Assembly (NCBI GenBank): GCA_023150935.1
Contig: JAKLJW010000003.1
Location: 124,001-188,000 of the forward strand
Origin: Candidatus Binatia bacterium
GTDB lineage: Bacteria > Desulfobacterota > Binatia > HRBIN30
Direction of reading: 5' to 3'
Length of the DNA: 64,000 bases
Shown: positions 1 to 53,595 of the stretch, one piece after another
Layout: each line of letters begins with the position of its first letter
How positions within the stretch are numbered: position 1 is the first letter of the stretch
Notes under the pieces: model-generated
Seen by the model: only the letters and a program-made list of their open reading frames with translations
What the model was told of the DNA's origin: nothing
The model's database searches: none
Translations under genes and position numbers: made by a program

Positions 1-2922
1 CTCCACCACCGCCCGCACCTCGAACACCTGTCCGGCCCGCACCTTGGCCGGGGAGGTCAGACGCACGCGTACCGTTTCTCCCGAGGTGGCCCTGGCGCTC
101 GGCCTCACGGCTCCATCGCCCGTAACTCCCGTGGGCGTCTGCCCGCACTGGCTGAAGTTGGTCACCAGCAGCGAAAAGTCGATCAGCGTCACGCACCCGT
201 CACCGTTGAAGTCGGCCCGAGAGTCGTAGCCGACGTCCCCGTTGCACTTGCCAAACGTCGTCACCAGCACCGAGAAGTCCACCAACGTGACGCAGTTGTC
301 GTCGTTGGCGTCACCTTCCGGCAGCGTACCGAAGCTCACGGTGTTCGTTCCTGCGACCAGCGATACCGTCTGGCAGGTCCGCAGCGTGTGGCTGTGCTTC
401 GCGCAAGCCAGGTACGTCCCTGGCACAATGCCCCCGCAGACGAACGCCCCGTTTTGATCCGTCGTCGTCGCGCATCCCGTATCCACCCCGCTTCCGCCCT
501 GGGACGTCAGGGTCACCGTCAGAGGCACGGCCCATCGCGGGTCTGGCGGGGACGGCCGTCCCTGCAACTGCACCGTAGCGGCGAGCGTCGCCGTGTCGAC
601 TACCGTGACCGTGCCGTGCAGCAGGATCCCCAGTAACGACACTCCGCCAAACGTGACGTCACTCCGCCGCGGGGGCGTGGAGTTGAACATCACCAGCGCA
701 GCCGAGCCCACCCCCACGGCACTGAAGCGTACCGTTGCCAGAGTGAACGTCCCGGAGGGAAACCCCGAGAAGGTTCCGGCGGAATAGTCCAGACTGCCCG
801 TGGTGTTGTCGAACTGGTTCATGATCGGTACCGGCAATGCGCCGCCCGCCGTTACGCTCACGACCTGAAGCACGGCGGGATCGAAGTTCAAGAACGCGGC
901 GGCACCGTCCACCGTCGACGTACCGGCGCGCACCTCCAGAGTCAGGTCAAACGTCTGTCCCACGGCCACGGTCGTGTTCGCCGGCATAACGGCTAGCACG
1001 ACACCGACCTGGGGCGTCGAGGTCGGCGTCATGGTCGGCAAGGGCGGCGCCCCGGTAGGCGTGAACGTCGGCGTGAACGTACGTGTGGGAGTCCGGGTCG
1101 CGCCGGTCGGGGTGGACGTCGAGGTGAACGTGAACGTCACCGCGGGAGTGAACGTCCGCGTCGGTGTTCCCGTCGACGTCGACGTCCGCGTCGATGTCGG
1201 TGTTCCACCGGTCGGCGTATTCGTCGGGGTCCGCGTACGGGTCATCGTCGGCGTCCCGCCGGGCGGCATCGACGTCGGCGTCGCTGTGAACGTGATGGTT
1301 GGCGTGTACGTATACGTTGCTGTTGGCGTCGGCGTCCGCGTTGCTAACGATGTCGCAGTCGGGGTTGCGGTTGGCGACGAGGTGACCATGAGGGTCTCAT
1401 CGGCAATTACGACGGCGTTGTTCGAAACAGTGTACTCGGCTACCGAGCCGTTCACGATCCAACCCACGAAGTAGGTGCCATGCGGTTGATTCGCGGGCAC
1501 GGTCAGGGCGGTGGTGGACACAATGTACGTGTATGCTGCCATGTCGGCCAGCGCGACCGATCCGATCCACCGGTCGGACCCACTGATGGTCAAGTCGGTC
1601 GACAGGTAGAAGTCTACCGTCACTGCGCCCGACGCCGCGAAGCCCACGTTAGCGAGGTTGTACTCCAGCGTGAAAGAGCCCCCGGCCGCGACGGCATTTG
1701 CGAGCAGATCCTTTGCGTCGGGGTCGAAGAGGTATTCGGTGAGATCGGGCCGGGCCACCGGGGGCCGGTTGGCTTCATCGTCGGAGATGTAGGCGTCGAT
1801 GTCGGATGACTTGCCGCCGGTCAGCAGGGTATCCTCGGCATTACAGGCCCGATCCGAGGTCGAATGAATACCCTGGATGTACCGGTTGATCCCGTCGTAC
1901 CTCCACGACGGGCCTCCGCTGTGTCCGCCGTAGACCCCCGCGTCGAGCCCAATGCGACCCCCGCTATAGCCGAGCACCGGCGCCAGAGCGGTATATTGAA
2001 CCAACGAGTTGCTGGGGACGTACGGGGTCTCTACCGGATAGCCACTGAAGTTAAGCGCGCTCGCGTACACGTCCGTCTCGCGGCCCATCCACCCGGTGTG
2101 GTCGCCGTCGCGCCGATCGATGGTGATGACGCCCCAATCGTGGTCGAAGTTCTGGAATACCGTCCAGCCGGAGTAGCTTCGCAATAAGACCGCCTTCGCC
2201 TCGCCGTAAGGGTGATCCGGATCCCCGAAGGGATCCACCTGGTCGGTCTGCGCGGCCCATGCCCACACCTCGCTGGCCCACGCCGCGTCGGATACGTTGC
2301 CGTCGCGGTTCGGGTCCCAGTTGTAAATGCAATGTCCGGCCGTAAGTAACTGGAACGATCCGACCACCGAGGCGCTGCACACGTAGTAGTAGTCGGTGCC
2401 CCCGGAGTTGAAGCGCATGAGGAGCTTGACCACCGTGTTGAACGGAAAGGCGAGCGAGTCGTACAGCGACGACGGCGGGGAACACGGGTTCTGGGGACTC
2501 GCCGGACCGCGGCCGCGATCATCCGAAGCCGCATCGTCGGTCGAGCTCCGAGGGGGCAAGTTTGCCTCTCCACTCTGCAGATCGATCGGGAGCATTCCCG
2601 GCTGGGACGGAACTACAAGTCCTGTCGGGCCCGGAGACGACACCTCGCTTTCTGGTACCTCGATGGTGTCGCCTGAAGTCAGATCGCGGCCCACCATCGA
2701 ACGCTGGAGGCTGGACGCAGAGTCGAGTGGCGCATACTGCCGGGTCGCCGGAGGATTCGGCGCAGGCCCGGCGTTCTTCAGGATCTCGATCAGTTGAGAC
2801 CGGCTCAGGCTCTCTCGCTGCTGGCCCGATCCGTCATCCTCGTTCCCCCGCGCAGTTCTCGGATACACCCAGAGTACCGCAGCCAGCGCTACCAGCAGTC
2901 CGACACTCGACTTGTTCGTCAT
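1..2922 (-). CDS. Secreted trypsin-like serine protease with cohesin-like and dockerin-like modules (partial, runs off left edge)
   Basis: The reading frame is open for 974 codons from an ATG at 2922 to the window edge; the C-terminus lies outside. A GA-rich ribosome-binding stretch precedes the ATG, and the first ~25 residues form a signal peptide with a hydrophobic core ([13 protein letters not shown]). Catalytic triad candidates of an S1 (trypsin/V8-like) protease are visible: His ~197 in LTAGHCIY, Asp ~262 in HDWGVITI and Ser ~335 in GGHSGGPSW. Then come a CARDB-like beta domain (~400-490), a Thr/Pro linker of TPTxTPT repeats (~500-630), a cohesin-like domain (~640-780), a carboxypeptidase-regulatory-like beta domain, and two dockerin-like calcium loops (DANDDN ~868, DFNGDG ~902), each followed by a VTLxDFS-type helix. 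A further cohesin-like strand begins at the edge. The protein is presumably exported and acts on the surface or outside the cell. The domain names are by eye; the triad and the dockerin repeats are the firmest. Confidence 0.85.
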
Positions 2923-3149
2923 GACCGTACCCCCCCTCTACCGTCTCGACCGACCTCGCGCCGATCCTCTTCGCAACTATCGGCAGGTCGAACGACACTG
3001 CACCAATACGCCTCGCTAAGTCAACCGCGCGCAGCGCGCGCGTGCCACCTCGGCACCGAACGCACTCCACCGCGGTTCCCGAAGCCCGGCCACGTCTCCC
3101 TGACCTCCGCCGCCAGTGGCGTCCAGGGCACAGGGCCGCTCGCAGGCCT

Positions 3150-3392
3150 TCAATCGAGGAAAGCCTTCACGCTAATATCTTCGTCAATTTCCGGCCAGTG
3201 AATGCCGTATCCCCCCGGCGAAATCTCAAAATTTCCCAATTGCTCGGGCGTCGCATCCAGCAAGCGGGAGAACCATGCCAGCGGCACCGACACTTCGCGG
3301 CCGTCGCTCAGCTTCGCCGTGAGCTGGTCCGGACTAACGCGGACATCGACGATTGCCGGGTAATTCCTAGCTCTTCGTGCGGCTAAACTCAT
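3150..3392 (-). CDS. DUF2442 domain protein
   Basis: A protein of 80 residues from the ATG at 3392. The core (VRVSPDQLTAKLSDGREVSV, then PLAWFSRL and GIHWPEIDEDIS) matches the DUF2442 pattern, in which a short beta sheet is followed by the WPxIDEDIS motif. It overlaps the end of the DUF4160 gene by 26 bases, so the two are co-transcribed and probably translationally coupled. DUF4160/DUF2442 pairs are common in bacterial genomes and have been proposed to behave as toxin-antitoxin-like modules, but no function is firmly established. The frame continues upstream of the chosen ATG inside the DUF4160 gene; residues before MSLAARRARNY look like out-of-frame shadow and were left out. Confidence 0.75.
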   Translation of the reverse strand: MSLAARRARNYPAIVDVRVSPDQLTAKLSDGREVSVPLAWFSRLLDATPEQLGNFEISPGGYGIHWPEIDEDISVKAFLD

Positions 3393-3609
3393 TCCAGCAC
3401 CCCATAAGCAGAGGGACGTTCGCTTTGACGATTTGCATTGCCCGCCGCTGTTCCGGCGGTGACAGTCCAAAGGAAGACTCGACGGCGAGGGACGGCAGCC
3501 AAACTTTCATTTCACCACCTTTGCCGGTTATGTGAATGTGCGGTGGCTCGTTGCGCTCGTTGCTGTAGAAGTGAAAGCGAAAGCCCTCCTTTGTGAATAC
3601 CGTGGGCAC
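3367..3609 (-). CDS. DUF4160 domain protein
   Basis: A protein of 80 residues. The GTG at 3609 was chosen because it gives the family-typical start (PTVFTKEGFRFHFYSNE) and has AGAGGGG about seven bases upstream. The diagnostic NEPPHIHI motif follows, then GEMKVWLPSLAVE and a C-terminal helical segment (EQRRAMQIVKAN). Family length is normally 75-90 residues, so it looks complete. It is the first gene of a two-gene unit with the DUF2442 protein. A toxin-antitoxin-like role is suggested for such pairs, but which partner is toxic is unknown. Confidence 0.8.
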   Translation of the reverse strand: MPTVFTKEGFRFHFYSNERNEPPHIHITGKGGEMKVWLPSLAVESSFGLSPPEQRRAMQIVKANVPLLMGCWNEFSRTKS

Positions 3610-3799
3610 TGGAACCCCTCTTATCACATCGGGCGACGAGGTTGGAGGAGGTCGTACCCGTGGAGGTGCCGGGCCACGCGCTGACTTCTCGCAACTCCCG
3701 GTCGGCGCGCCTCCGCGCAAAGCCACTGGAACACCTGAATCAGGGATCTCTTATTGACGCCTCAGCCTGCGTTTCTCACCACAGAGGCCCGCGGACCGT

Positions 3800-3903
3800 G
3801 GGGACGATGGTACCTTTGGTACGTTTCGCTGCCGATTCGTGGCCGTAGTACCGTCGTTTCTGGATCCCCCATCGCGTACCGCACCGGGAGTACCATCGTC
3901 CCC
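3800..3903. repeat. 104-bp inverted-repeat element upstream of the helicase gene
   Basis: A perfect 14-bp inverted repeat (GGGGACGATGGTAC at 3800-3813, its complement at 3890-3903) encloses 76 bases. Further short GGTACC/GTAC palindromes lie inside each arm. It sits 80 bases before the SNF2 helicase start and within the otherwise empty 3610-3983 interval. It could be a miniature mobile element or a structured leader; no second copy was seen in the window. Confidence 0.55.
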
Positions 3904-3983
3904 TATCCCCCCCTACGGGCTTGCGGCGTCGGGACAGGCAAATTATGAGCGGGCCTTCGCGGACGGCAACGCGGGGAGGATCG

Positions 3984-6605
3984 ATGGACGAAAAGAACGC
4001 TAGAGAAAGGACGGAGGCCGAGGCCCGCAACGAGCTCCTCGACATGGCACGCGGCAAGACCGGCGCAGTTCCGGAGCACGTACTGGTCGACCACGTGCTG
4101 GCGGTAACGGCCGGATCGAACTGGCCCGTGCGCGCCGAAGCCATGCGGGCGGTGTTGCGGCGCTGCGCGTTCGGCAAGCGCGATCGCCTGCACGTCGCGA
4201 TGCGCCCGCCGGAAGACCAGCCGCTCGGCATCTATCGAACCGGCCGCGACGGGTCGTCCACACGGCCGTACCGCACCCTGATCGCCGGGGTTCAGCCGCT
4301 CGGCACCAGTTGCGACTGCGCCGATTTCCTGCGCAACTCGCTCGGTCTGTGCAAGCACGCCATGGCCGCCCTCGACGACGTCTACGGGCGGCCGCGGGCG
4401 CTGCGCCGGGCGCAGGCGATGCAGTCGACCGATGGCCTCCCGGTCCGCCCGACGATGCTCTGGGATCCAATCCGGCCGTTGCGTGGACCGGGCGATTGGC
4501 TCGAACGGATCGCCCTGCACTTCGGTACCTCCACCGAGGGCGCACGCCGGTTGGCCACCGTCGACCGCCTGTTCGCCGCCGGCTCCGGCCCGATCCGCCG
4601 ACTTCGCGAGGCCCATGCAGACGACGCCGGGGCCCGACTGCGGACGATCGAGGCGCTCCTGCGCCTGGTCGGCGCAGGTCGACACTCCGCATCGCCGATC
4701 GTCGCCACGGAGCCGGCGGTCCCCGCGTTGCTCAGGGCCGAACGCGAGCGCCTGCATCACCTGACGGTCCATGCCCTCGCTCCGCGGGAGATCGCGCGCG
4801 CCATCGCCACCATGCGGCAGAAGCCCTACCCTTACCAGCTCGAAGGCGTGCAGCGGTTTCTCCGCGAGGGACGCCTGTTGCTGGCCGACGACATGGGACT
4901 CGGCAAGACCGCGCAAGCGATCGCCGCCTGCCACGTGCTGTGGGAGGGCGAACGCATCCGGCGCGGGCTGCTCGTAGTCCCTGCCAGCCTGAAGCCGCAG
5001 TGGCTGCGCGAATGGGCGGCGTTCACCAACGTGCCGATCGCCGCCGTCGACGGTTCGCCCGGCGAGCGACTCGCTGCCTATCGCCGCACCAGAAGCGGCT
5101 ACCTCCTGATCAACTACGAATTGCTGTTGCGCGACTTCGACGCCGTGAGCGCCTGGGCACCGGAGGTGGTCGTCCTGGACGAGGCCCAGCGGATCAAGAA
5201 CTGGGCGACCAAGAGCGCGGCCTACGTCAAGCGCCTGGCACCGCGATACCGCCTCGTCCTGACGGGAACGCCGATGGAGAACCGCATCGACGAGTTGGCG
5301 TCGATCTACGACTGGGTCGACAGCTACGCCCTCGAACCCAAGTGGCGACTCGTGCCGTGGCACACGACACCGGTGGACGGCGAGCGGGCAATCGGCGGGG
5401 CTCGCAACCTCGATACCCTGCGCACCCGTCTCGCCCCCACCATGCTCCGCCGCACCCGGCAGGAGGTGCTCGACCAGCTCCCGCCGCGCACCGACACGAT
5501 CGTTCCCGTCGACCTGACCGCGGCGCAGGCCGAGGAGCACGACGCACTGATCAGGCCGATCGCGTCGCTCCTCCAGCGCGCGCGGCGCCGCCCGCTCATG
5601 CAAGCCGAGTTTCTCAAGCTGATGCAACTGCTCACCACGCAGCGCATCATCGCCAACGGGCTTGCCCAGTTCCGCTTCGGCGAACTCTGGCCCGCGCTCG
5701 CCGATCGCGCGCCCGAGCCCGCCCTAATCGACAGTCTCTCCAGCCCCAAGCTGCTCGAGCTACACGAGCTGCTCGACCACATTGTGCTCGGGCAGCGCCG
5801 CAAGGCGGTCGTATTCAGTCAGTGGCGCCGCATGCTCGATCTCGCCTGTTGGGCGACCCGCGATCTGCTGGCCCGCGCCGGGCAGCGCGCCGTGTTCTTC
5901 ACCGGTCGCGAGGGGCCCGCTCGCCGCACGCAGAACCTCGTCGACCTGCACGACGATCCGTCGGTGAGTGTGCTCTTCGCCAGCGATGCGGGTGGGGTTG
6001 GCCTGAACCTGCAAAAGGCCGCGAGCTGCTGCATCAACATCGACCTGCCCTGGAACCCGGCCGTCCTGGAGCAGCGCATCGGCCGCATTTACCGCCTCGG
6101 TCAGAAGCGCCCCATCGACGTCTACAACCTCGTCACCCAGAACAGCATCGAGGCCCGCATCGCCACCCTCGTGGCGGACAAGAAGGCGCTGTTTTCGAGC
6201 CTGTTCGACGGCTCCACCGACGAGGTTTGCTTCGACCGCTCCGGGTCGTTCCTGACGCAACTGGAACGCATCGTCGAGCCGGTCGCCGTTCCCGAACCGG
6301 AAGATGCGGATCTCCAGCCAGAGGAGACACCGCTCGCCCGCGAACTCGAGGCGATTATGGCGGCAGCCGACGAGAGCGCCGACCTGCCGGCTGCCGCGGC
6401 AGCGCCCGCGCCCGCGAAGCGTCACGGCATGGAAGGCGTCGCCAGCGGTACCCCCGTCGACGTCGGGCAGTTGTTCGCCAGCTTGAAGGTCCGCACGACC
6501 GCCGACGGCGGCATGGCGATCGAAGCGCCGCCCGAGGCGGCCGGCACTCTGGCCAGCGTCTTCGAGGGTCTGGCGCGACTGCTCCGCATGCAGAACCCCC
6601 AGTGA
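3984..6605 (+). CDS. SWIM zinc-finger SNF2-family DEAD/H helicase
   Basis: A protein of 873 residues. The ATG at 3984 (MDEKNARERTE) is preceded by GAGGA at good spacing and preferred over upstream in-frame starts. A SWIM-type zinc-binding motif (SCDCADFL then CKH) lies at ~109-125. SNF2 ATPase motifs follow: motif I LADDMGLGKTAQAI (~300), DEAQ box (~398), LTGTPMEN (motif III) and QRIGRIYRLGQKRPIDVYNL (motif VI, ~698). The architecture of SWIM plus two RecA-like lobes matches bacterial RapA/HepA-type SNF2 translocases that act on DNA or DNA-protein complexes. The C-terminal ~120 residues are acidic and Ala/Pro-rich without a recognised domain. It stands alone, with no restriction or DISARM-type neighbours, so a housekeeping chromatin or repair role is as likely as defence. 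Confidence 0.92.
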   Translation: MDEKNARERTEAEARNELLDMARGKTGAVPEHVLVDHVLAVTAGSNWPVRAEAMRAVLRRCAFGKRDRLHVAMRPPEDQPLGIYRTGRDGSSTRPYRTLIAGVQPLGTSCDCADFLRNSLGLCKHAMAALDDVYGRPRALRRAQAMQSTDGLPVRPTMLWDPIRPLRGPGDWLERIALHFGTSTEGARRLATVDRLFAAGSGPIRRLREAHADDAGARLRTIEALLRLVGAGRHSASPIVATEPAVPALLRAERERLHHLTVHALAPREIARAIATMRQKPYPYQLEGVQRFLREGRLLLADDMGLGKTAQAIAACHVLWEGERIRRGLLVVPASLKPQWLREWAAFTNVPIAAVDGSPGERLAAYRRTRSGYLLINYELLLRDFDAVSAWAPEVVVLDEAQRIKNWATKSAAYVKRLAPRYRLVLTGTPMENRIDELASIYDWVDSYALEPKWRLVPWHTTPVDGERAIGGARNLDTLRTRLAPTMLRRTRQEVLDQLPPRTDTIVPVDLTAAQAEEHDALIRPIASLLQRARRRPLMQAEFLKLMQLLTTQRIIANGLAQFRFGELWPALADRAPEPALIDSLSSPKLLELHELLDHIVLGQRRKAVVFSQWRRMLDLACWATRDLLARAGQRAVFFTGREGPARRTQNLVDLHDDPSVSVLFASDAGGVGLNLQKAASCCINIDLPWNPAVLEQRIGRIYRLGQKRPIDVYNLVTQNSIEARIATLVADKKALFSSLFDGSTDEVCFDRSGSFLTQLERIVEPVAVPEPEDADLQPEETPLARELEAIMAAADESADLPAAAAAPAPAKRHGMEGVASGTPVDVGQLFASLKVRTTADGGMAIEAPPEAAGTLASVFEGLARLLRMQNPQ

Positions 6606-7058
6606 TCCCCCGTCCAGCGCGAGATCCGCCGAGGACTTTGGGTCAGTAAACGGCGCATCTCCGAACGCATCGCGTCGACCCGGCCATGCACCTGCACTGC
6701 ATCGAGGCGGATCCCAGAACACGTAGGGCGCGCGCGCAGCGGGAACCAGGAAAACCCGTTGTGCTCGTTCACATCGGCACGCTGCTCCCGGCCCGCTCCC
6801 GCATCCGTGCGCCGAAGCTGGTGATCGAAGCGGCCTGACCCAGCCCGTCCGCTCCCTTCGCTGGGGCGTGAGTCGCCCCCACCCAGTTTCGCCGTCGGAA
6901 TCGGCACCATAGCCCGGAAATCGGGTCGTCCTCGGGGGTAAAACCGAAACTTTACAGCAAGTTGCAGAGGTGCCACCCTGCAAGAACAGGGTTCAGGGTG
7001 CAGGGTGCGGGGTGCGTCTGCAACCCGGAACCCTGCACCCCGTACCCCGTACCCGCGA
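6606..7058. other. Intergenic stretch with a GGGTGCAGGGT-type inverted repeat
   Basis: No convincing gene is seen between the helicase stop and the tRNA. Frames here lack domain signal or ribosome-binding sites. At about 6986-7050 the sequence is built of repeated GGGTGCAGGGT-like units that recur as their complement (ACCCTGCACCCC), giving an imperfect hairpin. Confidence 0.5.
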
Positions 7059-7079
7059 GCCGCGCCCCACAGGCGCGGC
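7059..7079 (-). terminator. Possible hairpin terminator downstream of tRNA-Lys
   Basis: A perfect 8-bp GC stem (GCCGCGCC and GGCGCGGC) with a five-base loop begins seven bases past the tRNA 3' end on the minus strand. There is no T-run, so it may stabilise or process the 3' end rather than act as a classical intrinsic terminator. Confidence 0.35.
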
Positions 7080-7085
7080 GAGCAC

Positions 7086-7158
7086 TGAGCCGTGTTGGAT
7101 TCGAACCAACGACCCTCTGCTTAAAAGGCAGATGCTCTACCTCCTGAGCTAACGGCTC
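7086..7158 (-). tRNA. tRNA-Lys (anticodon TTT)
   Basis: The minus strand folds into a 73-base cloverleaf. The acceptor stem is GAGCCGT paired with ACGGCTC, the D-arm contains TAGCTCAGGAGGTAGAGC, the anticodon loop is CTTTTAA, the T-loop is GGTTCGAATCC, and the discriminator base is A. Loop geometry gives anticodon TTT, reading AAA/AAG lysine codons. CCA is not encoded; the next bases are GTG. Confidence 0.96.
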
Positions 7159-7260
7159 GCGCGGGCGGACGCCTCTCTTATCGCCAGTGGCGGCGCCCTG
7201 GTCAACGGGCGAGGAGGGCTAGTAGGGTCGTGGGGGTCGTGGGGTCCCGAATGGGAAAGC

Positions 7261-7348
7261 TCAGGACCTCAAGACCTCAGGACCTCAAGACCTCAGGACC
7301 TCAAGACCTCAAGACCTCAAGACCTCAGGACCTCAGGACCTCAGGACC
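7261..7348. repeat. 8-bp tandem repeat array, 11 units
   Basis: Eleven uninterrupted copies of TCARGACC (R is A or G) run without a single length change. The array lies in the gene-free interval 7159-7461 between tRNA-Lys and the acetyl-CoA hydrolase gene, ending 113 bases before the start codon. The same unit, in another phase, forms the array at 47311-47406. A unit length of 8 is not a codon multiple, so copy-number changes would shift any reading frame. Confidence 0.95.
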
Positions 7349-7461
7349 CCCGGGGGGTGTCGACGCGGGCCGGGGTCGTGGTAATGGACGGTTCGGTAGC
7401 CCCGCCGGGCGCGCCGGCCGCGCAGCGGGACCCCGCATTACGATAGACGGAGACGGCAGCC

Positions 7462-9630
7462 ATGTCAGACCTTCCCCGGGAACTTGCAACAGTCGAAGAA
7501 TGCGTCGAGTGGGCGATCGCTACCGTGGGCAACCGCATCGTCCTCGGTGCGCCGCTCGGGCTCGGCAAACCCAACCAGCTCATGAACGCATTCTACCGGC
7601 GCGCCTGTGCCGACCCGTCCCTGCACCTGACGATCTTTACCGCCCTGTCGCTGGAAAAACCGACGCCCGAAAGCGACATCGAGGCGAGGCTTCTCGAACC
7701 CTACCTCAGCCGCCATTTCGGCGACTACTGCGATCTCGAATACCTCCAGGCCGTGCGCTCCGATTCGCTGCCGCCCAACGTCCGCGTCCACGAATTCTAC
7801 TTCCGCGCCGGCTCGATGACCCGCGTCGCCGCCGCCCAGCGCCATTACGTCTCCACCAACTACACCTTCGTCGCCCGTGACCTCCTCGAACGCGGCGTCA
7901 ACGTCCTGGTGCAACTCGTGGCGGAACAGGACGTCGACGGCCGCCGCATGCTGAGCCTCTCCGGCAATACCGACGTAACCCTCGACCTCGTACCGATGCT
8001 CGAGGAACTGCGGCGCCAGGGACGCACCTTCGTCACGATCGCGCAGGTCCACCGCGACCTCCCCTTCATGTACAACCGTGCCATGGTCGAGCCGCGGTAC
8101 TTCGACTTCATCGTCCGCAACCCGGCCTACAACACCACGCTCTTCGCCACGCCGAACCTCTCGGTCGGCACGACCGACTACGCCATCGGCTTCCACGCCA
8201 GCACGCTCGTCAAGGACGGCGGCACTTTGCAGATCGGCATCGGCGCGTTGGGCGACGCGCTCGTCTACGGCTGCCTGCTGCGCCACCGACACAACGCCGC
8301 TTACCGCGAGGTTGCCGCCGGGCTCGGCGCCGACCCCGCTCTCGTCGACCGCGTCGGCGGCCTCGCGCCGTTCGAAAAGGGCCTTTACGGCTGCAGCGAG
8401 ATGTTCGTGAACGGCTTCGTACAACTGTTGCGCGCCGGCATCCTGACCCGGGCCGTGTTCGACGAGCCGCGCCTGCAGCGCCTGTTGAACGAGGGACGGA
8501 TAGCAACCACGGTCGATAACCGCACGCTCGCCACACTCGCGGCGGAACGCGTCATCTCTCCGCAACTGACCCGCGCCGACGTCGACTTCCTCCGCTACTG
8601 GGGCATCCTCCGCCCCGAAGTCGGCTTCGACGACGGGCACCTGATCGTCAATGGCACGAGAATTCGGGCCGACCTCGACGATCCCGAAGCCTACGAGACG
8701 GTCTGCGAGTGGGCCCTTGGCGATGCTCTCGCCCACGGCGTCGTCATGCACGGGGGCTTCTTTCTCGGCCCCGCCGACTTCTATCAGGCGCTGCGGGACA
8801 TGCCGCGTGCCGAGGCGGAACGCATTGCCATGGACAGCGTGCGCCGCATCAACCGCATCGACCAGCCCGACCTCCAGGCCCTGCAGCGCACCGCCGCACG
8901 GTTCGTCAATACCGCCATGATGGTGACTCTCAGCGGCGCGGTCGTCTCCGACGGACTCGAAGACGGTCAGGTGATCAGCGGGGTCGGCGGCCAGTACAAC
9001 TTCGTCGCGCAGGCGCACGAGCTGCCCGACGCCCGCTCGATCATCTGCCTGCGCGCGGTCCGCGGCACCGGCCGGCACGCCGCCTCGAATATCGTCCCCA
9101 GCTACGGCCACTGCACCGTGCCCCGGCACCTGCGCGATATCGTGGTGACCGAATACGGAGTCGCCGACCTCCGCGCCCGCAGCGACGAGGAGATCGTTCA
9201 AGCGCTCCTGAACATCGCCGACTCGCGCTTTCAGGACGACCTGCTCGACGCCGCCCGCAACGCCGGCAAGATCGACCCCGACTACCGCGTCCCCGAACGC
9301 TATCGCAACAACCTTCCCGAACGGGTCCAGGGCGAGATCCAGCGCTGGCGCAAAGCGGGACACTTCCCGCCCTTTCCGTTCGGCACCGATTTCACCGCCG
9401 ACGAGATCGTCCTCGGCGCGACCCTGAAGAACGTCAAGGCGATGATGGACGAACCCCGCACGCTCATTCGCCAGCTCATCCGCTCGTTCACCCACGAGGT
9501 GCACGAAGAGGAAGCCGGCCGCTACCTGCAACGTATCGCCCTGGAACACCCCCAGACCGCCAAGGAAGTTATCCTGCAACACCTGCTGCTCCTGGAGCTC
9601 GAAGAGCGCGGACACCTGCGGCCGCTGTAG
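7462..9630 (+). CDS. Acetyl-CoA hydrolase/transferase family protein
   Basis: A protein of 722 residues. The C-terminal half carries the hallmark segment of the acetyl-CoA hydrolase/CoA-transferase family: ISGVGGQYNFVAQAHEL, then ASNIVPSYG, VVTEYGVADLRARS and a helix rich in alanine. The N-terminal half has the paired fold's first domain (VLGAPLGLGKPNQLMNAFYR, then LSVGTTDYAIGF). Members move CoA between acyl groups or hydrolyse acyl-CoA in the cytosol. It is longer than the usual 430-550 residues, with an extra ~120-residue C-terminal segment (NNLPERVQGEIQRWRK onwards). The start ATG has GGAG ten bases upstream. The neighbouring penicillin-acylase gene is co-oriented but separated by a MITE-like element. 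The true acyl substrate cannot be read from sequence. Confidence 0.88.
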   Translation: MSDLPRELATVEECVEWAIATVGNRIVLGAPLGLGKPNQLMNAFYRRACADPSLHLTIFTALSLEKPTPESDIEARLLEPYLSRHFGDYCDLEYLQAVRSDSLPPNVRVHEFYFRAGSMTRVAAAQRHYVSTNYTFVARDLLERGVNVLVQLVAEQDVDGRRMLSLSGNTDVTLDLVPMLEELRRQGRTFVTIAQVHRDLPFMYNRAMVEPRYFDFIVRNPAYNTTLFATPNLSVGTTDYAIGFHASTLVKDGGTLQIGIGALGDALVYGCLLRHRHNAAYREVAAGLGADPALVDRVGGLAPFEKGLYGCSEMFVNGFVQLLRAGILTRAVFDEPRLQRLLNEGRIATTVDNRTLATLAAERVISPQLTRADVDFLRYWGILRPEVGFDDGHLIVNGTRIRADLDDPEAYETVCEWALGDALAHGVVMHGGFFLGPADFYQALRDMPRAEAERIAMDSVRRINRIDQPDLQALQRTAARFVNTAMMVTLSGAVVSDGLEDGQVISGVGGQYNFVAQAHELPDARSIICLRAVRGTGRHAASNIVPSYGHCTVPRHLRDIVVTEYGVADLRARSDEEIVQALLNIADSRFQDDLLDAARNAGKIDPDYRVPERYRNNLPERVQGEIQRWRKAGHFPPFPFGTDFTADEIVLGATLKNVKAMMDEPRTLIRQLIRSFTHEVHEEEAGRYLQRIALEHPQTAKEVILQHLLLLELEERGHLRPL

Positions 9631-9648
9631 CCGGCACGCGCGGCTAAG

Positions 9649-9842
9649 TAGTGATGGGCACAATTACGGCGACGTATTCCGTACGACGCTTTCCGTTCGC
9701 CCCGAGTAGCCCCGTTTTCTCAGGGGCGTATCGAGGGGCAGCCTGGCGGGCGGCTTTGCGGCCCCGCCCCTCGATACGCCGCCGGAAAGATGGTGCTACT
9801 CGGGGCGAACGGAATACGCTGCCGAATTAATGAACCGGAGTA
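9649..9842. mobile_element. MITE-like element, copy A (194 bp)
   Basis: The 194-bp non-coding element matches 46754-46947 base for base apart from about eleven substitutions. Its outer ~35 bases form an imperfect terminal inverted repeat (GTATTCCGT is shared by both ends), and inside is a long hairpin built from CGTTCGCCCCGAGTAG and CGTATCGAGGGGC with their complements. Flanks are CTAAG (9644-9648) and CTACG (9843-9847), a possible degenerate 5-bp target duplication. It has no transposase, so it would need one in trans. Confidence 0.8.
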
Positions 9843-9920
9843 CTACGGCCGGTGTAACCGGCGTCGTCTCGACCGAATCCGATCGCAACCCAACCGAGCA
9901 CTTACGAGGCCAGAACGCGC

Positions 9921-25223: not shown

Positions 25224-25420
25224 CAGCGCGGGCTGGCGCCCGCAACCCAAAGCGAACAACTAGCCCGTTCGCCCCGAGTAGGAGCCCTTCCCCTGGGCTC
25301 CGTATCGAGGGGCGCGCCCCTGCCGAGCCGGTCCCTCGATACGCAGCCTGAGAAGACGGCTGCTACTCGGGACGAACGGCGAGGCGCAGCCGCTCCATGG
25401 CCTGAAGATTTCGTCGCGCC
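25224..25420. repeat. Inverted-repeat element, copy C (~197 bp)
   Basis: A hairpin core (25265-25379, 115 bp) with arms beginning CGTTCGCCCCGAGTAG and ending CTACTCGGGACGAACGG is flanked by ~40 bp on each side. The whole stretch recurs in opposite orientation at 53401-53595 with few substitutions. The core arms are shared with the MITE copies A and B. It lies in the 25133-25512 interval between the GT4 and epimerase genes, which holds no gene. Confidence 0.85.
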
Positions 25421-25480: not shown

Positions 25481-25512
25481 AGAATACGTTGGCGAATTAA
25501 TGAACCAGAGTA
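25481..25512. mobile_element. Solo right end of the MITE-like element
   Basis: These 32 bases (AGAATACGTTGGCG, then AATTAATGAACCAGAGTA) match the right terminus of MITE copies A and B and abut CTAAG at 25513-25517, the same kind of junction. No left end was found upstream. The junction supplies the stop codon of the epimerase gene: CTA here reads TAG on the minus strand. Confidence 0.65.
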
Positions 25513-26442
25513 CTAAGCGACGGGCAGCCCGGCCACAAACGTCTCGCGCAGGCCTTCGATCAACGACGTCGCCGGCCGGCCCACACACCCGGTCAGCCGG
25601 GTCACATCGGGACGCAACACGTCACGCTCCACCGTGCGACACTTCTCCGGCACGCTGGTCGCCTCGAGCGGCAGGCCAGTGGCCTCCCTCAGTGCCGCCA
25701 CCAGCTCCTCAACCGTCCACCCGCCGCCGGTGCCGACGTTGACTACGTCCGGCGGGTCGTCCACTTCGAGCAGACGGCGGAAAGCCGCCGCGACGTCGCG
25801 CACGAAGACGTAGTCGCGGACCGGCCACAGGTTACCCAGCTCCAACCGCCGCACCCCCGCCTGCACCTGCTTGACGATCTCCGGAATCAGGTGCGGATTC
25901 GTCTCGCCCGGGCCATAGACATTGAACAGCCGCACGACGACGCGCCGCGGCACGCCCGGCATACGGTCGAGATGCACCGCTTGCTCGGCCATCCACTTCG
26001 AGAGCCCGTAGGCATTGAACGGCGCCACCGCATCGGTTTCCCGGTGCGGCTCCCGCGCCGGCCTGTAAACGTCGCCGGTAGACACCAGCAGGAATCGGCG
26101 CACCCCGGATGCCTTCGCCGCCTCCCACACTCTTTGCGTGCCGACGAGATTGATCTCGTACGTTCCCGCCGGATCGGCGACGCATTCCGGAATGAAGTGC
26201 CGCGCCGCCAGGTGAAAAACCAACTCGGGCCGGCCGGCGGCAAACGCCGCCGCCACGTCATCGGCACGGCGCACGTCGCCGCGAACGAACCAAAACGACG
26301 GGCGACCGAAAAAGTCCGCCATGTGTCGCTCCGTCCCCCGCGAGGTGTTGTCGAGGCCGGTAACGTCATACCCGGCAGCCAACAACTGCCGCGTCAACTC
26401 GGAACCGACAAAACCGGCACAACCTGAAACGAATGCGTGCAT
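25513..26442 (-). CDS. NAD-dependent epimerase/dehydratase (extended SDR)
   Basis: A protein of 309 residues. NAD site: VSGCAGFVGSELTRQLL. Catalytic region: LVSTGDVYRP and YGLSKWMAE (Tyr-x-x-x-Lys). LFNVYGPGETNPHLIPEI follows, typical of GalE/RmlB/GDP-sugar reductase-like SDRs. The ATG at 26442 lies three bases after the stop of the DNA methyltransferase gene, so the two are probably translated from one message. The stop codon lies in the CTTAG junction of the inserted repeat end. Product sugar unknown; a GDP-4-keto-6-deoxymannose reductase or epimerase would fit with Gmd. Confidence 0.87.
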   Translation of the reverse strand: MHAFVSGCAGFVGSELTRQLLAAGYDVTGLDNTSRGTERHMADFFGRPSFWFVRGDVRRADDVAAAFAAGRPELVFHLAARHFIPECVADPAGTYEINLVGTQRVWEAAKASGVRRFLLVSTGDVYRPAREPHRETDAVAPFNAYGLSKWMAEQAVHLDRMPGVPRRVVVRLFNVYGPGETNPHLIPEIVKQVQAGVRRLELGNLWPVRDYVFVRDVAAAFRRLLEVDDPPDVVNVGTGGGWTVEELVAALREATGLPLEATSVPEKCRTVERDVLRPDVTRLTGCVGRPATSLIEGLRETFVAGLPVA

Positions 26443-44569: not shown

Positions 44570-46753
44570 ATGGCCAACGTCCATGGCGACCCCCCGGTTG
44601 GCGTCTCGCTACCGCACCGCGACGGTCGGGGAGACCTCCTGCGCGCCACCCGCACCCTTGCCGAACGCCTGCCCGAACCGCTCGTGCCCCTGGCGCGCCT
44701 CGCTTACAACTACCGCTGGTCCTGGCGCCTGAACGGGGCTTCCGTCTTCCGCGAGATCCACCCCTCGATCTGGCGCCGCAGCGAACACAACCCGCGCTAC
44801 GTCATCGAAGCCGTCGCCCCACATCGCCTCGATGCGCTGGCCGGCGACGGCGCCTATGTCGCCCGCGTCGAGGCACTCGCGGCCGCGATCGACGCCGAAC
44901 TGGCGGCACCCGCGGCCAATCTCGGCATCCAGGCGGAAAACCCGGTCGCCTATTTCTGCTCGGAGTTCGCCATCCACTGCTCCCTGCCGATCTACAGCGG
45001 CGGCCTCGGCGTTCTCGCCGGCGATCTCCTGAAAGCCGCCTCCGACATGGCCCTACCGATGGTCGGCATCGGCTTGCTGTACCGCCAGGGCTACTTCCAT
45101 CAGCGTATGGACCGCTGGGGCTGGCAGCACGAGTACTGGGTGAACACCAACTTCGAGCGCCTGCCGATGGTCCGCGTCACCGACGTCGACGGGACGCCCC
45201 TGAACGTCGACGTCGTCCTGCGCAAGCGCACCGTCAAAGTGAAGGTCTGGCGCGTCGATGTCGGCCGCGTACCGCTGTATCTCCTCGACACCGACCGCGA
45301 GGAAAATCACGTCATCGACCGCTGGATCACCTCGCGGCTTTACGTCGGCGACCGCCACACTCGCCTGGCCCAGTACGCCATTCTCGGCATCGCCGGAAAC
45401 CGCGCCCTGCGCGCCATGGGAATTCAGCCGAGCATCGTCCACATGAACGAAGGCCACGCCGCCCTCGGGCGCTTCGAACGTCTGCGCGAACAGATCGCCG
45501 CCGGCCATTCGGTCGAGGCGGCGCTGGCGATCGTGCGCCAGCCCAGCATCTTCACCACTCACACCCCCGTGGCCGCCGGCAACGAAGGCTACCGCGAGGA
45601 CGAAATCGAAGCCGTGCTGGGCGATTTTCTCGACCGTCTCGGGGCGCCGCGGACGATGGTCTTCGACCTCGGCCGTCTTCAGCCCGGCAACCGCGAGGAA
45701 CCGGCCAGCATCACCCCGCTGGCCCTGCGGACCAGCCGCGCCTGCAACGCCGTATCCCGCCGGCACGGCGAAGTCGCACGCACCATGTGGCAGCCACTGT
45801 GGCCGGAACGCCCCGTCGATCGGGTCCCGATCGATCACGTCACCAACGGCGTCCATACGCTGACGTGGATGGGCGGGCGCATGCAGGACCTCCTCGATCG
45901 CCACCTCGGCGCCAACTGGCGGCAACGCGAAGCCGACCCCAATCTGTGGGCCCGCATCGATGCCATTCCCGACGCGGAGTTGTGGTCGGTGCGCTGCGCG
46001 ATGCGCGCCGACCTAGTCGAGTACGCGCGCGAGCAGTCGATGCGCGACCGCCTTTCCCGCGGGGAACCGCCCGATTACGTCGAAGCCGCCGCCATGACCC
46101 TCGATGCCGGCACACTGACCGTCGGTTTCGCCCGCCGCATGGCCACGTACAAGCGATTTTATCTGCTCAGCCGCAGCCCCGAGCGCGGCCTGCGCCTGCT
46201 CGCCAACACGGCACACCCCATGCAGCTCCTGGTGGCCGGGAAGGCCCACCCCGAGGACCAGGACGCCAAGGACACCCTGCACAATTTCTTTCAGCTCAAG
46301 CATTCGCCACTGGTCGCCGGCCGCGTCGCCTTTATTGAAGACTACGATCTCCACAGCGCCCCGCGGATCATCGCGGGTGTCGACCTGTGGCTGAACCTTC
46401 CCCGCCCGCCGATGGAAGCCAGCGGTACCAGCGGCATGAAGGTTACCCTGAACGGCGGCATCAACCTGAGCGTTCTCGACGGCTGGTGGATCGAGGGCTA
46501 CGACGGCGACAACGGATGGGCGATTCAGTCGCCGGTCGCCGATCCCCAGGTTCAGGACGAACACGACGTCAACGCCCTTTTCGACCTCATGGAGCAGGAG
46601 GTCCTGCCGCTGTTCTACGACCGCGACGCCGACGGCATCCCGCGCGGCTGGGTGCGCCGCATCAAACGCGCCATGCGCACCCTGATCCCGCAGTTCACGG
46701 CCAACCGTATGCTGCAGGACTACGTGAGGAAAATGTACGGACCGGGGGCTTAG
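44570..46753 (+). CDS. glgP: Alpha-glucan phosphorylase (GT35)
   Basis: A protein of 727 residues, the shorter GT35 form of ~700-730 residues. The PLP-lysine motif EASGTSGMKVTLNGG is present; AYFCSEFAIHCSLPIYSGGL and HMNEGHAALGRFERLREQI mark the N-terminal half. It phosphorolyses glycogen or maltodextrin to glucose-1-phosphate in the cytosol. That could feed NDP-sugar synthesis for the adjacent polysaccharide locus, but this is inference from position. Its stop codon TAG lies in the 5-bp CTTAG duplication next to MITE copy B. Confidence 0.93.
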   Translation: MANVHGDPPVGVSLPHRDGRGDLLRATRTLAERLPEPLVPLARLAYNYRWSWRLNGASVFREIHPSIWRRSEHNPRYVIEAVAPHRLDALAGDGAYVARVEALAAAIDAELAAPAANLGIQAENPVAYFCSEFAIHCSLPIYSGGLGVLAGDLLKAASDMALPMVGIGLLYRQGYFHQRMDRWGWQHEYWVNTNFERLPMVRVTDVDGTPLNVDVVLRKRTVKVKVWRVDVGRVPLYLLDTDREENHVIDRWITSRLYVGDRHTRLAQYAILGIAGNRALRAMGIQPSIVHMNEGHAALGRFERLREQIAAGHSVEAALAIVRQPSIFTTHTPVAAGNEGYREDEIEAVLGDFLDRLGAPRTMVFDLGRLQPGNREEPASITPLALRTSRACNAVSRRHGEVARTMWQPLWPERPVDRVPIDHVTNGVHTLTWMGGRMQDLLDRHLGANWRQREADPNLWARIDAIPDAELWSVRCAMRADLVEYAREQSMRDRLSRGEPPDYVEAAAMTLDAGTLTVGFARRMATYKRFYLLSRSPERGLRLLANTAHPMQLLVAGKAHPEDQDAKDTLHNFFQLKHSPLVAGRVAFIEDYDLHSAPRIIAGVDLWLNLPRPPMEASGTSGMKVTLNGGINLSVLDGWWIEGYDGDNGWAIQSPVADPQVQDEHDVNALFDLMEQEVLPLFYDRDADGIPRGWVRRIKRAMRTLIPQFTANRMLQDYVRKMYGPGA

Positions 46754-46947
46754 TATTGATGGGCACAATTACGGCGACGTATTCCGTACGACGCTTCCCG
46801 TTCGCCCCGAGTAGCCCCGTTTTCTCAGGGGCGTATCGAGGGGCAGCCTGGCGAGCGGCTTTGCGGCCCCGCCCCTCGATACGCCGCCGAAAAGATGGCG
46901 CTACTCGGGACGAACGGAATACGTCGCCGGACTAATGAACCGGAGTA
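46754..46947. mobile_element. MITE-like element, copy B (194 bp)
   Basis: Element of the same length and sequence family as copy A. CTTAG occurs on both sides (46749-46753 and 46948-46952), an exact 5-bp direct duplication. The left CTTAG carries the glgP stop. Ends are imperfect terminal inverted repeats; the interior is a long GC-rich hairpin. No coding capacity. Confidence 0.88.
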
Positions 46948-47091
46948 CTTAGCCCCAATCCCGGTCAGTCGAGCGTCGCGAACCGAAAGCGATTCCGATT
47001 CCGATACCGACCCCGACTCCGATCGGTCGCGGCCGAACACCGCGCGGGGGTATATTCAAGAGATCGGCCTCAGGCCGTTGCAAGCGCGGGC

Positions 47092-47310: not shown

Positions 47311-47406
47311 CCTCAAGACCTCAAGACCCCAAGACCCCAAGACCCCAAGACCTCAAGACCCCAAGACCCCAAGACCTCAAGACCCCAAGACCTCAAGACC
47401 CCAAGA
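47311..47406. repeat. 8-bp tandem repeat array, 12 units
   Basis: Twelve perfect-length copies of CCYCAAGA (Y is T or C) begin at 47311. The array ends six bases past the SbcC-like stop codon (47413) on the minus strand. The unit is the same as in the 7261-7348 array, differing only in phase and in which base varies. On the minus strand it reads as repeated TCTTGGGG. Confidence 0.95.
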
Positions 47407-47412
47407 CCCCCC

Positions 47413-53400: not shown

Positions 53401-53595
53401 GGCGCGAATAAATTCGGGCCATGGAGCGGCTGTGCCCCGCCGTTCGTCCCGAGTAGCAGCCGTCTTCTCAGGCGGCGTATCGAGGGACAGACTCGGCGGG
53501 GGCGCGCCCCTCGATACGGAGCCCAGGGGAAGGGCTCCTACTCGGGGCGAACGGGCTGGTTGTTCGCTTTGGGTTGCGGGCGCCAGCCCGCGCTG
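53401..53595. repeat. Inverted-repeat element, copy D (~195 bp)
   Basis: The element runs in opposite orientation to copy C and matches it over ~195 bp with few changes. The 115-bp core is at 53440-53554. It begins 28 bases after the stop of the LexA-like gene and abuts the HepT-like remnant. A CGTCATGCCGGCGAA repeat of the REP type lies immediately beyond. Confidence 0.85.

Follow-up and report, generated by a model that had tools for sequence, protein, structure and literature searches.

A glycogen phosphorylase gene in a member of the Candidatus Binatia ends within a 5-bp word, CTTAG, that recurs unchanged on the far side of a 194-bp sequence, and this locus raises the question of what the 194-bp sequence is, which enzyme moved it and why it lies on a stop codon. 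The stretch of DNA analysed (64,000 nucleotides; referred to here as the window) belongs to an assembly of 198 contigs, the source genome G000.

Copies of the element in the window

Copy B of the MITE (46754-46947, plus strand) is 194 bp long and contains no transposase gene. Direct reading of the plus strand places CTTAG to its left (46749-46753) and again to its right (46948-46952), in agreement with the exact duplication described in the original prediction, and the TAG at 46751-46753 is indeed the stop codon of glgP (44570-46753, plus strand), a glycogen phosphorylase-type ORF of 727 amino acids whose Pfam domains, Phosphorylase and DUF3417, fit this name. Copy A (9649-9842, plus strand) was confirmed in position and length (194 bp); the two copies differ as had been stated, at exactly 10 positions instead of about eleven. 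Its flanks, CTAAG (9644-9648) and CTACG (9843-9847), have one mismatch. The terminal inverted repeats of copy B, i.e. TATTGATGGGCACAATTACGGCGACGTATTCCG at the left end (46754-46786, plus strand) and TACTCCGGTTCATTAGTCCGGCGACGTATTCCG at the right end (46915-46947, minus strand), agree at 23 of 33 positions, and the inner hairpin core (46798-46918, with limits taken from partial matches) belongs to a separate repeat family. RNA folding of 46749-46952 gave -114.6 kcal/mol (z -8.98), and an Rfam search of the window at the gathering thresholds identified one tRNA and nothing else.

A solo right end on the minus strand (25484-25512) matches the end pattern without a mismatch and abuts a CTAAG (25513-25517, minus strand) containing the TAG stop of an epimerase gene (25513-26442, minus strand). 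It is thus present where the original prediction had placed it, but its family is a different and longer one whose terminal repeats are of the same kind (family 2, the family of copies A and B being family 1), and no partner for it was found among the nearby end-pattern matches. A 183-bp hairpin module (25224-25406) has an inverted repeat copy at 53413-53595 (96% identity), beside which neither inspection nor the end-pattern search found terminal repeats. Two runs of 8-bp repeats, CTCAAGAC-like and CCCAAGAC-like, are located at 7260-7351 and 47312-47411, respectively.

Family 1 in the source genome

A search of G000 with a 204-bp query (copy B and its flanks) yielded 81 matches, 24 of which are at least 183 bp long. 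Nine of these 24, including the query itself, score 364-369 bits: the query is one of three full-length matches at 369 bits, and six others reach 364 bits. Several other matches break off where a contig ends, which is expected because assemblies break in repeats. The near-identical copies suggest a recent spread of family 1.

When the 24 long matches were scanned automatically in element orientation, both ends were assigned in 23 (L020 has no left motif), and 16 of the 23 had identical 5-bp flanks. The original prediction had made its idea depend on most copies possessing flanking duplications, and it survives this count. The seven remaining copies include scan artefacts, in that the right end of L018 was misplaced (its flank is CTTAG by alignment) and that of L024 is degenerate; among the 21 copies used for the gene context below, 17 have identical 5-mers, including L010 and L021, where both flanks read CTAAG in element orientation. 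The two flanks share their middle base in 19 of 23 copies, an agreement attained in 33 of 200,000 trials in which the right flanks were shuffled. Among these 19, T/T (15 copies) outnumbers A/A (4 copies), so that a target which is otherwise palindromic shows a bias of orientation.

At L005 (1501-1704), a family-1 copy lies exactly at a CTAAG beside another end of the same type, so that the duplicated word itself appears to have been re-used as a target. L010 was considered as a second case: the sequence beside it agrees with a family-2 left end at 21 of 28 positions but was missed by the weight-matrix scan, and L010 was therefore not counted.

Mobile ends, inner hairpin and family 2

In G000, a degenerate pattern of the end has 76 matches and the same pattern read backwards has none. 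A weight-matrix scan blind to the flank, trained on ends of the type found in the window and thus liable to miss distant ones, detected 95 distinct ends, which are preceded by C in 87, T in 86, a middle A in 43, T in 42, C in 6 or G in 4, A in 85 and G in 88 cases. The end matches and the pairing of the flanks are not due to chance. CTNAG joined to the end pattern was found in 7 of 148 genomes of the class, with no control hits among the matches listed, and G001 (L165) and G002 (L187) also contain short elements flanked by CTTAG at either end.

The mobile ends comprise the outer ~30 bp on each side, and the interior of ~121 bp (46798-46918) is the hairpin. The hairpin also occurs in G000 and in other genomes without these ends, in matches confined to about positions 46-170 of the query; family 1 therefore appears to be a composite in which transposon ends surround a captured hairpin. 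Family 2 in G000 has the same ends and longer, variable interiors. Its flanks are often non-identical (L056, L057, L061, and L064), with different middle bases in some elements (C/T in L057 and G/A in L064), and are identical in L066 and L144.

The locus L144 (G000 C18:15500-27500) contains a 9-kb stretch bounded by such ends, with CTAAG on both sides. A part of about 7.2 kb (about 1741-9046), located between two ~46-bp direct repeat copies at the 5' portion of an IS701-like transposase gene, contains genes for HipA_C, QatC-like, and HTH plus Peptidase_M78 (IrrE-like) proteins, together with what we read as the start of an integrase-like ORF, for which there was no Pfam match. It has the appearance of an integrative element that carries defence-type cargo and is nested within an element flanked by CTNAG. 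The IS701-like transposase was itself considered as the partner of family 1 and rejected: on Paraburkholderia plasmids, its relatives lie between different ends (CTCGAGAGTGCCG), next to flanking repeats of 8-10 bp (by eye). An end similar to CTCGAGAGTGCCG is also visible by eye inside L144. Since the ends of the relatives differ, the gene is regarded as a nested IS. A scan of viral contigs with the IS701-like protein confirmed no relative.

Insertion sequences with the same type of ends

One of the matches to CTNAG joined to the end pattern, L184 in genome G474, marks a complete IS of 1,270 bp, in the order CTAAG, end, IS630-type DDE_3 transposase gene in two frames, other end, CTAAG; by eye, its left CTAAG contains the stop codon of the neighbouring ORF. 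The transposase of L184, on which the profiles were tested, matches PF13358 (DDE_3) with 47.4 bits (cut-off, 28.6), and its two pieces score 92 and 39.8 bits against the NCBIfam IS630 model, below the cut-off of 100, each piece having been scored alone because the ORF is split over two frames. Most plasmid relatives, among the matches listed, are annotated as 'IS630 family transposase'. Related transposases were collected at 23 loci (15 plasmid stretches and 8 genome loci; L219 and L220 appear to be the same insertion), and both ends could be placed in 10 distinct elements. Eight of these, L184 included, show at least 54% identity to L184 over the matched part; the seven relatives of L184 range from 54% to 68% identity, and the IS lengths are 1.27-1.7 kb.

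Identical CTNAG words lie on both sides of seven of the eight, namely CTAAG in L184 and in L217 from the plasmid of Polaromonas JS666, and CTTAG in L213 and in L218, L219, L225, and L226 from actinobacterial plasmids. The exception is L221 (54% identity), which is flanked by ATCAG and CTAAG. A CTNAG adjoins the one end found in L214, L215, L223, L224, and L227, whereas end pairing and the matrix scan gave no convincing ends in L222 (52% identity), L229, L230, L231, L237, and L238 and an ambiguous result in L236. The more distant elements (about 33-34% identity) have CTAG on both sides (L239, 34%) or CTTAT on both sides (L216), and a FastTree phylogeny separates this distant group (the CTAG, CTTAT, haloarchaeal and other members) from the CTNAG elements plus L222 with a branch support of 0.973. 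The TA target duplication of the IS630 family is not what flanks the eight elements, and these IS elements are therefore classed as IS630-related, not as typical members. The ends of L184 are similar but not identical to those of family 1, and those of the actinobacterial IS elements are more distant.

An IS630-related IS is likely to represent the partner type of the MITE. The search for a transposase with matching terminal repeats, which the original prediction had proposed, led to IS elements with ends of this kind in other genomes, but no match to the L184 transposase was found at E <= 0.001 in G000, G001, G002, G004, or G008; among the eight genomes searched, only G010, G474, and G226 contained matches. 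Family 1 is short, lacks a transposase gene, is present in many copies (24 matches of at least 183 bp), and possesses terminal inverted repeats and a target-site duplication, as MITEs do; no autonomous partner matching the L184 transposase was found in G000, an assembly of 198 contigs in which a missing match does not prove absence. Because no L184-type transposase was found there, family 1 looks orphaned in this genome. Given the apparently recent spread of the copies, the partner may have been lost recently, may lie in an unassembled region, or may have come and gone on another replicon.

Length of the duplication and empty sites

A target C|TNA|G receiving an element that starts with G and ends with C reads the same as a 5-bp CTNAG copy, so that the duplication may be TNA (3 bp) or CTNAG (5 bp). 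The variation of the outer and inner flank bases is symmetric (C in 87 and G in 88 of 95 ends). The flanks of L194 (ATAAG and CTAAG) lean to 3 bp, whereas CTTAT on both sides of L216 favours 5 bp, because both the outer and inner letters agree. On these flanks, the 5-bp duplication appears to be ahead. The insertion site of L219 is the CTTAG at the close of an IS5-type element, other copies of which contain CTTAG once in three cases and CTTAA in the fourth; only the left side is comparable, and the comparison is paralogous. Joined-flank searches of plasmids returned no orthologous empty site (no record in which one place covered 80% of the query).

Gene context of the insertions

The gene context was determined for 21 of the 24 long matches, excluding L020, L022, and L024 (broken end), using genes called by an in-house codon score and not taken from curated annotation, and with the joined site of L017, L019, and L023 a few bases off in the script. 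In nine of the 21 insertions the 5-mer contains a stop codon, 11 are intergenic, and one lies within a gene, 10 nt before its stop. Of 25 CTWAG background sites (seven in the window outside both copies and 18 in 123 kb of other loci), four lie on a stop codon, 12 are intergenic, and nine are genic. The insertions avoid genes relative to this background (p=0.011), and the excess of stop codons (9/21 versus 4/25) has a Fisher p value of 0.046, or 0.19 with the genic sites left out. Outside genes or already on a stop are 16 of the 25 background sites, and CTWAG is itself rare in the window (10 occurrences versus about 64 expected from mononucleotide shuffles).

Because the word is rare, the background sites are mostly non-genic or on stops and the excess is marginal, the stop-codon pattern mainly reflects which sites exist and survive, and a stop-codon niche for the element is weakly supported. 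As regards the earlier interpretation, insertion at CTNAG with re-creation of the stop holds, while the idea of a useful niche is weakened by these numbers. The MITE-like nature of the element, the CTNAG duplication, and the re-created stop are in turn backed by the copies across the genome and by the transposase-bearing relatives.

Alternative explanations

An element selected for or aimed at gene ends, acting as a terminator or 3' mRNA stabilizer, would account for the nine insertions on stops, the further one 10 nt before a stop, and the strong hairpin. This reading is unlikely in view of the background sites, of which 16 of 25 also lie outside genes or on a stop, of the p value of 0.19 against non-genic sites, and of the lack of a visible U-run 3' of the hairpin. 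Considerably less likely is movement by a GIY-YIG nuclease whose gene lies between ends of this kind and which would cut CTNAG. The I-TevI domain cuts CNNNG. GIY-YIG genes do lie between such ends in G000 (L064 with an intact frame and the internally deleted L061), G004 (L186), and G008 (L183), and the layout of family 1 is that of L183 minus the GIY-YIG gene. None of these four elements has identical flanks (CTGAG/CTAAG in L064, CTAAA/CGTAA in L061, CTTGG/CTTCG in L183, and CGAAG/CTTAG in L186), a point that is weak alone because the flanks are also non-identical in L056 and L057, two of the four family-2 elements that lack the gene (the others being L066 and L144). In addition, a weight-matrix scan detected ends of this kind at none of 27 GIY-YIG loci of other genomes, many of which have hairpin arms; the YIG motif of the G004 copy is altered to YSAH (by eye); and the IS630-related IS elements carry such ends without GIY-YIG. 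The GIY-YIG genes between the ends are read as passengers.

That CTNAG belongs to the element or to a recombination motif, with no duplication at all, might be argued from the near constancy of the four outer letters and from the unequal middle bases of L057 and L064, but this becomes highly improbable when set against the concordant middle bases of family 1, the identical pairs at seven IS insertions in unrelated places, the single occurrence of the word at the left side of the L219 target in other copies, and the CTTAT on both sides of the distant relative L216. It is equally hard to credit an IS5/PIF-Harbinger-type partner producing a TNA duplication in a C_G context in the manner of NuwaII, which has the same target word and the same 3- or 5-bp ambiguity (PMC4482050): IS630-type transposases occur within such ends in G474, G226, Polaromonas, and four actinobacterial plasmids, neither of the DDE_Tnp_1 sites of G000 (two in number) is bordered by them in the stretch examined around it, and no IS5-type IS with these ends and flanks was seen.

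GIY-YIG genes with hairpin arms

Small GIY-YIG genes (UPF0213-like, with PDB matches to 1zg2 and 1ywl) were observed in several phyla (L087-L100, L082, L064, L183, and L186), flanked by inverted hairpin arms. Most of these arms belong to the CCGYTCRYCCTGAG...CTTCGA type; those of L100 and L113 differ from it in sequence. In a test of 26 loci (27 less L099, which was skipped), an exact inverted arm of at least 11 bp spans the gene in 11 loci, unmatched by control windows in those 11, and 15 have none, although arms are uncountable where the match enters the hairpin (e.g. L091, L093, and L097). These arms suggest a REP-like system in which GIY-YIG takes the place of RAYT. As in REP/RAYT (PMC2817692), palindromic extragenic repeats are tied to one enzyme gene, here a hairpin with GIY-YIG; the enzyme differs, and the link is one of association only. 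Searches of open-access literature listed no hairpin-armed GIY-YIG system by title or opening lines of the abstract.

Discussion

The 194-bp element is very probably a non-autonomous MITE with IS630-related ends that was moved in trans to CTNAG by a DDE transposase, with duplication of this word. The copies, the ends, and the flanks are directly visible in the sequences, as are the IS elements that resemble them in ends and flanks; the steps that connect them would be as follows. Two ends of the kind carried by an IS630-related IS would have come to enclose a hairpin captured from another repeat family; an IS630-related DDE transposase, supplied in trans, would bind the ~30-bp ends and excise the element; insertion would occur at CTNAG, mostly CTTAG or CTAAG; and repair of the staggered cut would leave CTNAG on both sides. 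Where the target lies on a stop codon, the duplication would restore the stop, and many insertions (9 of 21) lie on stops because CTWAG can accommodate TAG or TAA and seldom occurs within genes here. We infer that an enzyme of the IS630-related group moved family 1 by cut-and-paste, acting in trans, and that this partner was lost from G000 or is unassembled.

Members of the Tc1/mariner/IS630 family, such as IS630 and ISY100, duplicate TA (PMC2170065), and IS630 prefers a TA within CTAG, according to the title of a paper cited there. The present group resembles them in its IS630-type DDE transposase and in its target, with CTAG being one base short of CTNAG and found on both sides of L239, but differs from those family members in having TNA or CTNAG on both sides (PMC2170065). 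There are already known MITEs for which mobilization by an IS630-type enzyme is assumed: the 107-bp RUP of Streptococcus pneumoniae is thought to be moved in trans by IS630-Spn1 via matching ends (PMC2229807). Both RUP and the present element are small, intergenic, and non-coding, and mobilization in trans by an IS630-type enzyme via matching ends, which is inferred here, would be common to both (PMC2229807); RUP inserts at TA in that account, whereas the present element duplicates CTNAG, has no partner found in its genome, and has a captured hairpin as its interior (PMC2229807). The eukaryotic PHIS transposon NuwaII has the target C|TNA|G, and its authors could not distinguish 3- from 5-bp duplications (PMC4482050). 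It shares the target and this ambiguity with the present elements, but is eukaryotic and has a PIF/Harbinger/IS5-type transposase (PMC4482050). Searches of open-access literature listed no paper describing CTNAG duplication by a bacterial IS630 relative in its title or the opening of its abstract.

It seems reasonably probable that a widespread set of transposases related to IS630 no longer follows the TA rule of the Tc1/mariner/IS630 superfamily, targets the palindrome CTNAG, i.e. the CTAG target of IS630 with one additional central base, and generates a 5-bp (or 3-bp TNA) duplication. If the target spacing did change within the IS630 group, comparison of the CTAG/TA and CTNAG sets would allow us to ask which residues set the stagger of the DDE cut. 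The locus also offers a simple account of how a mobile element may insert harmlessly into a stop codon, and a preference for stop codons need not be adaptive.
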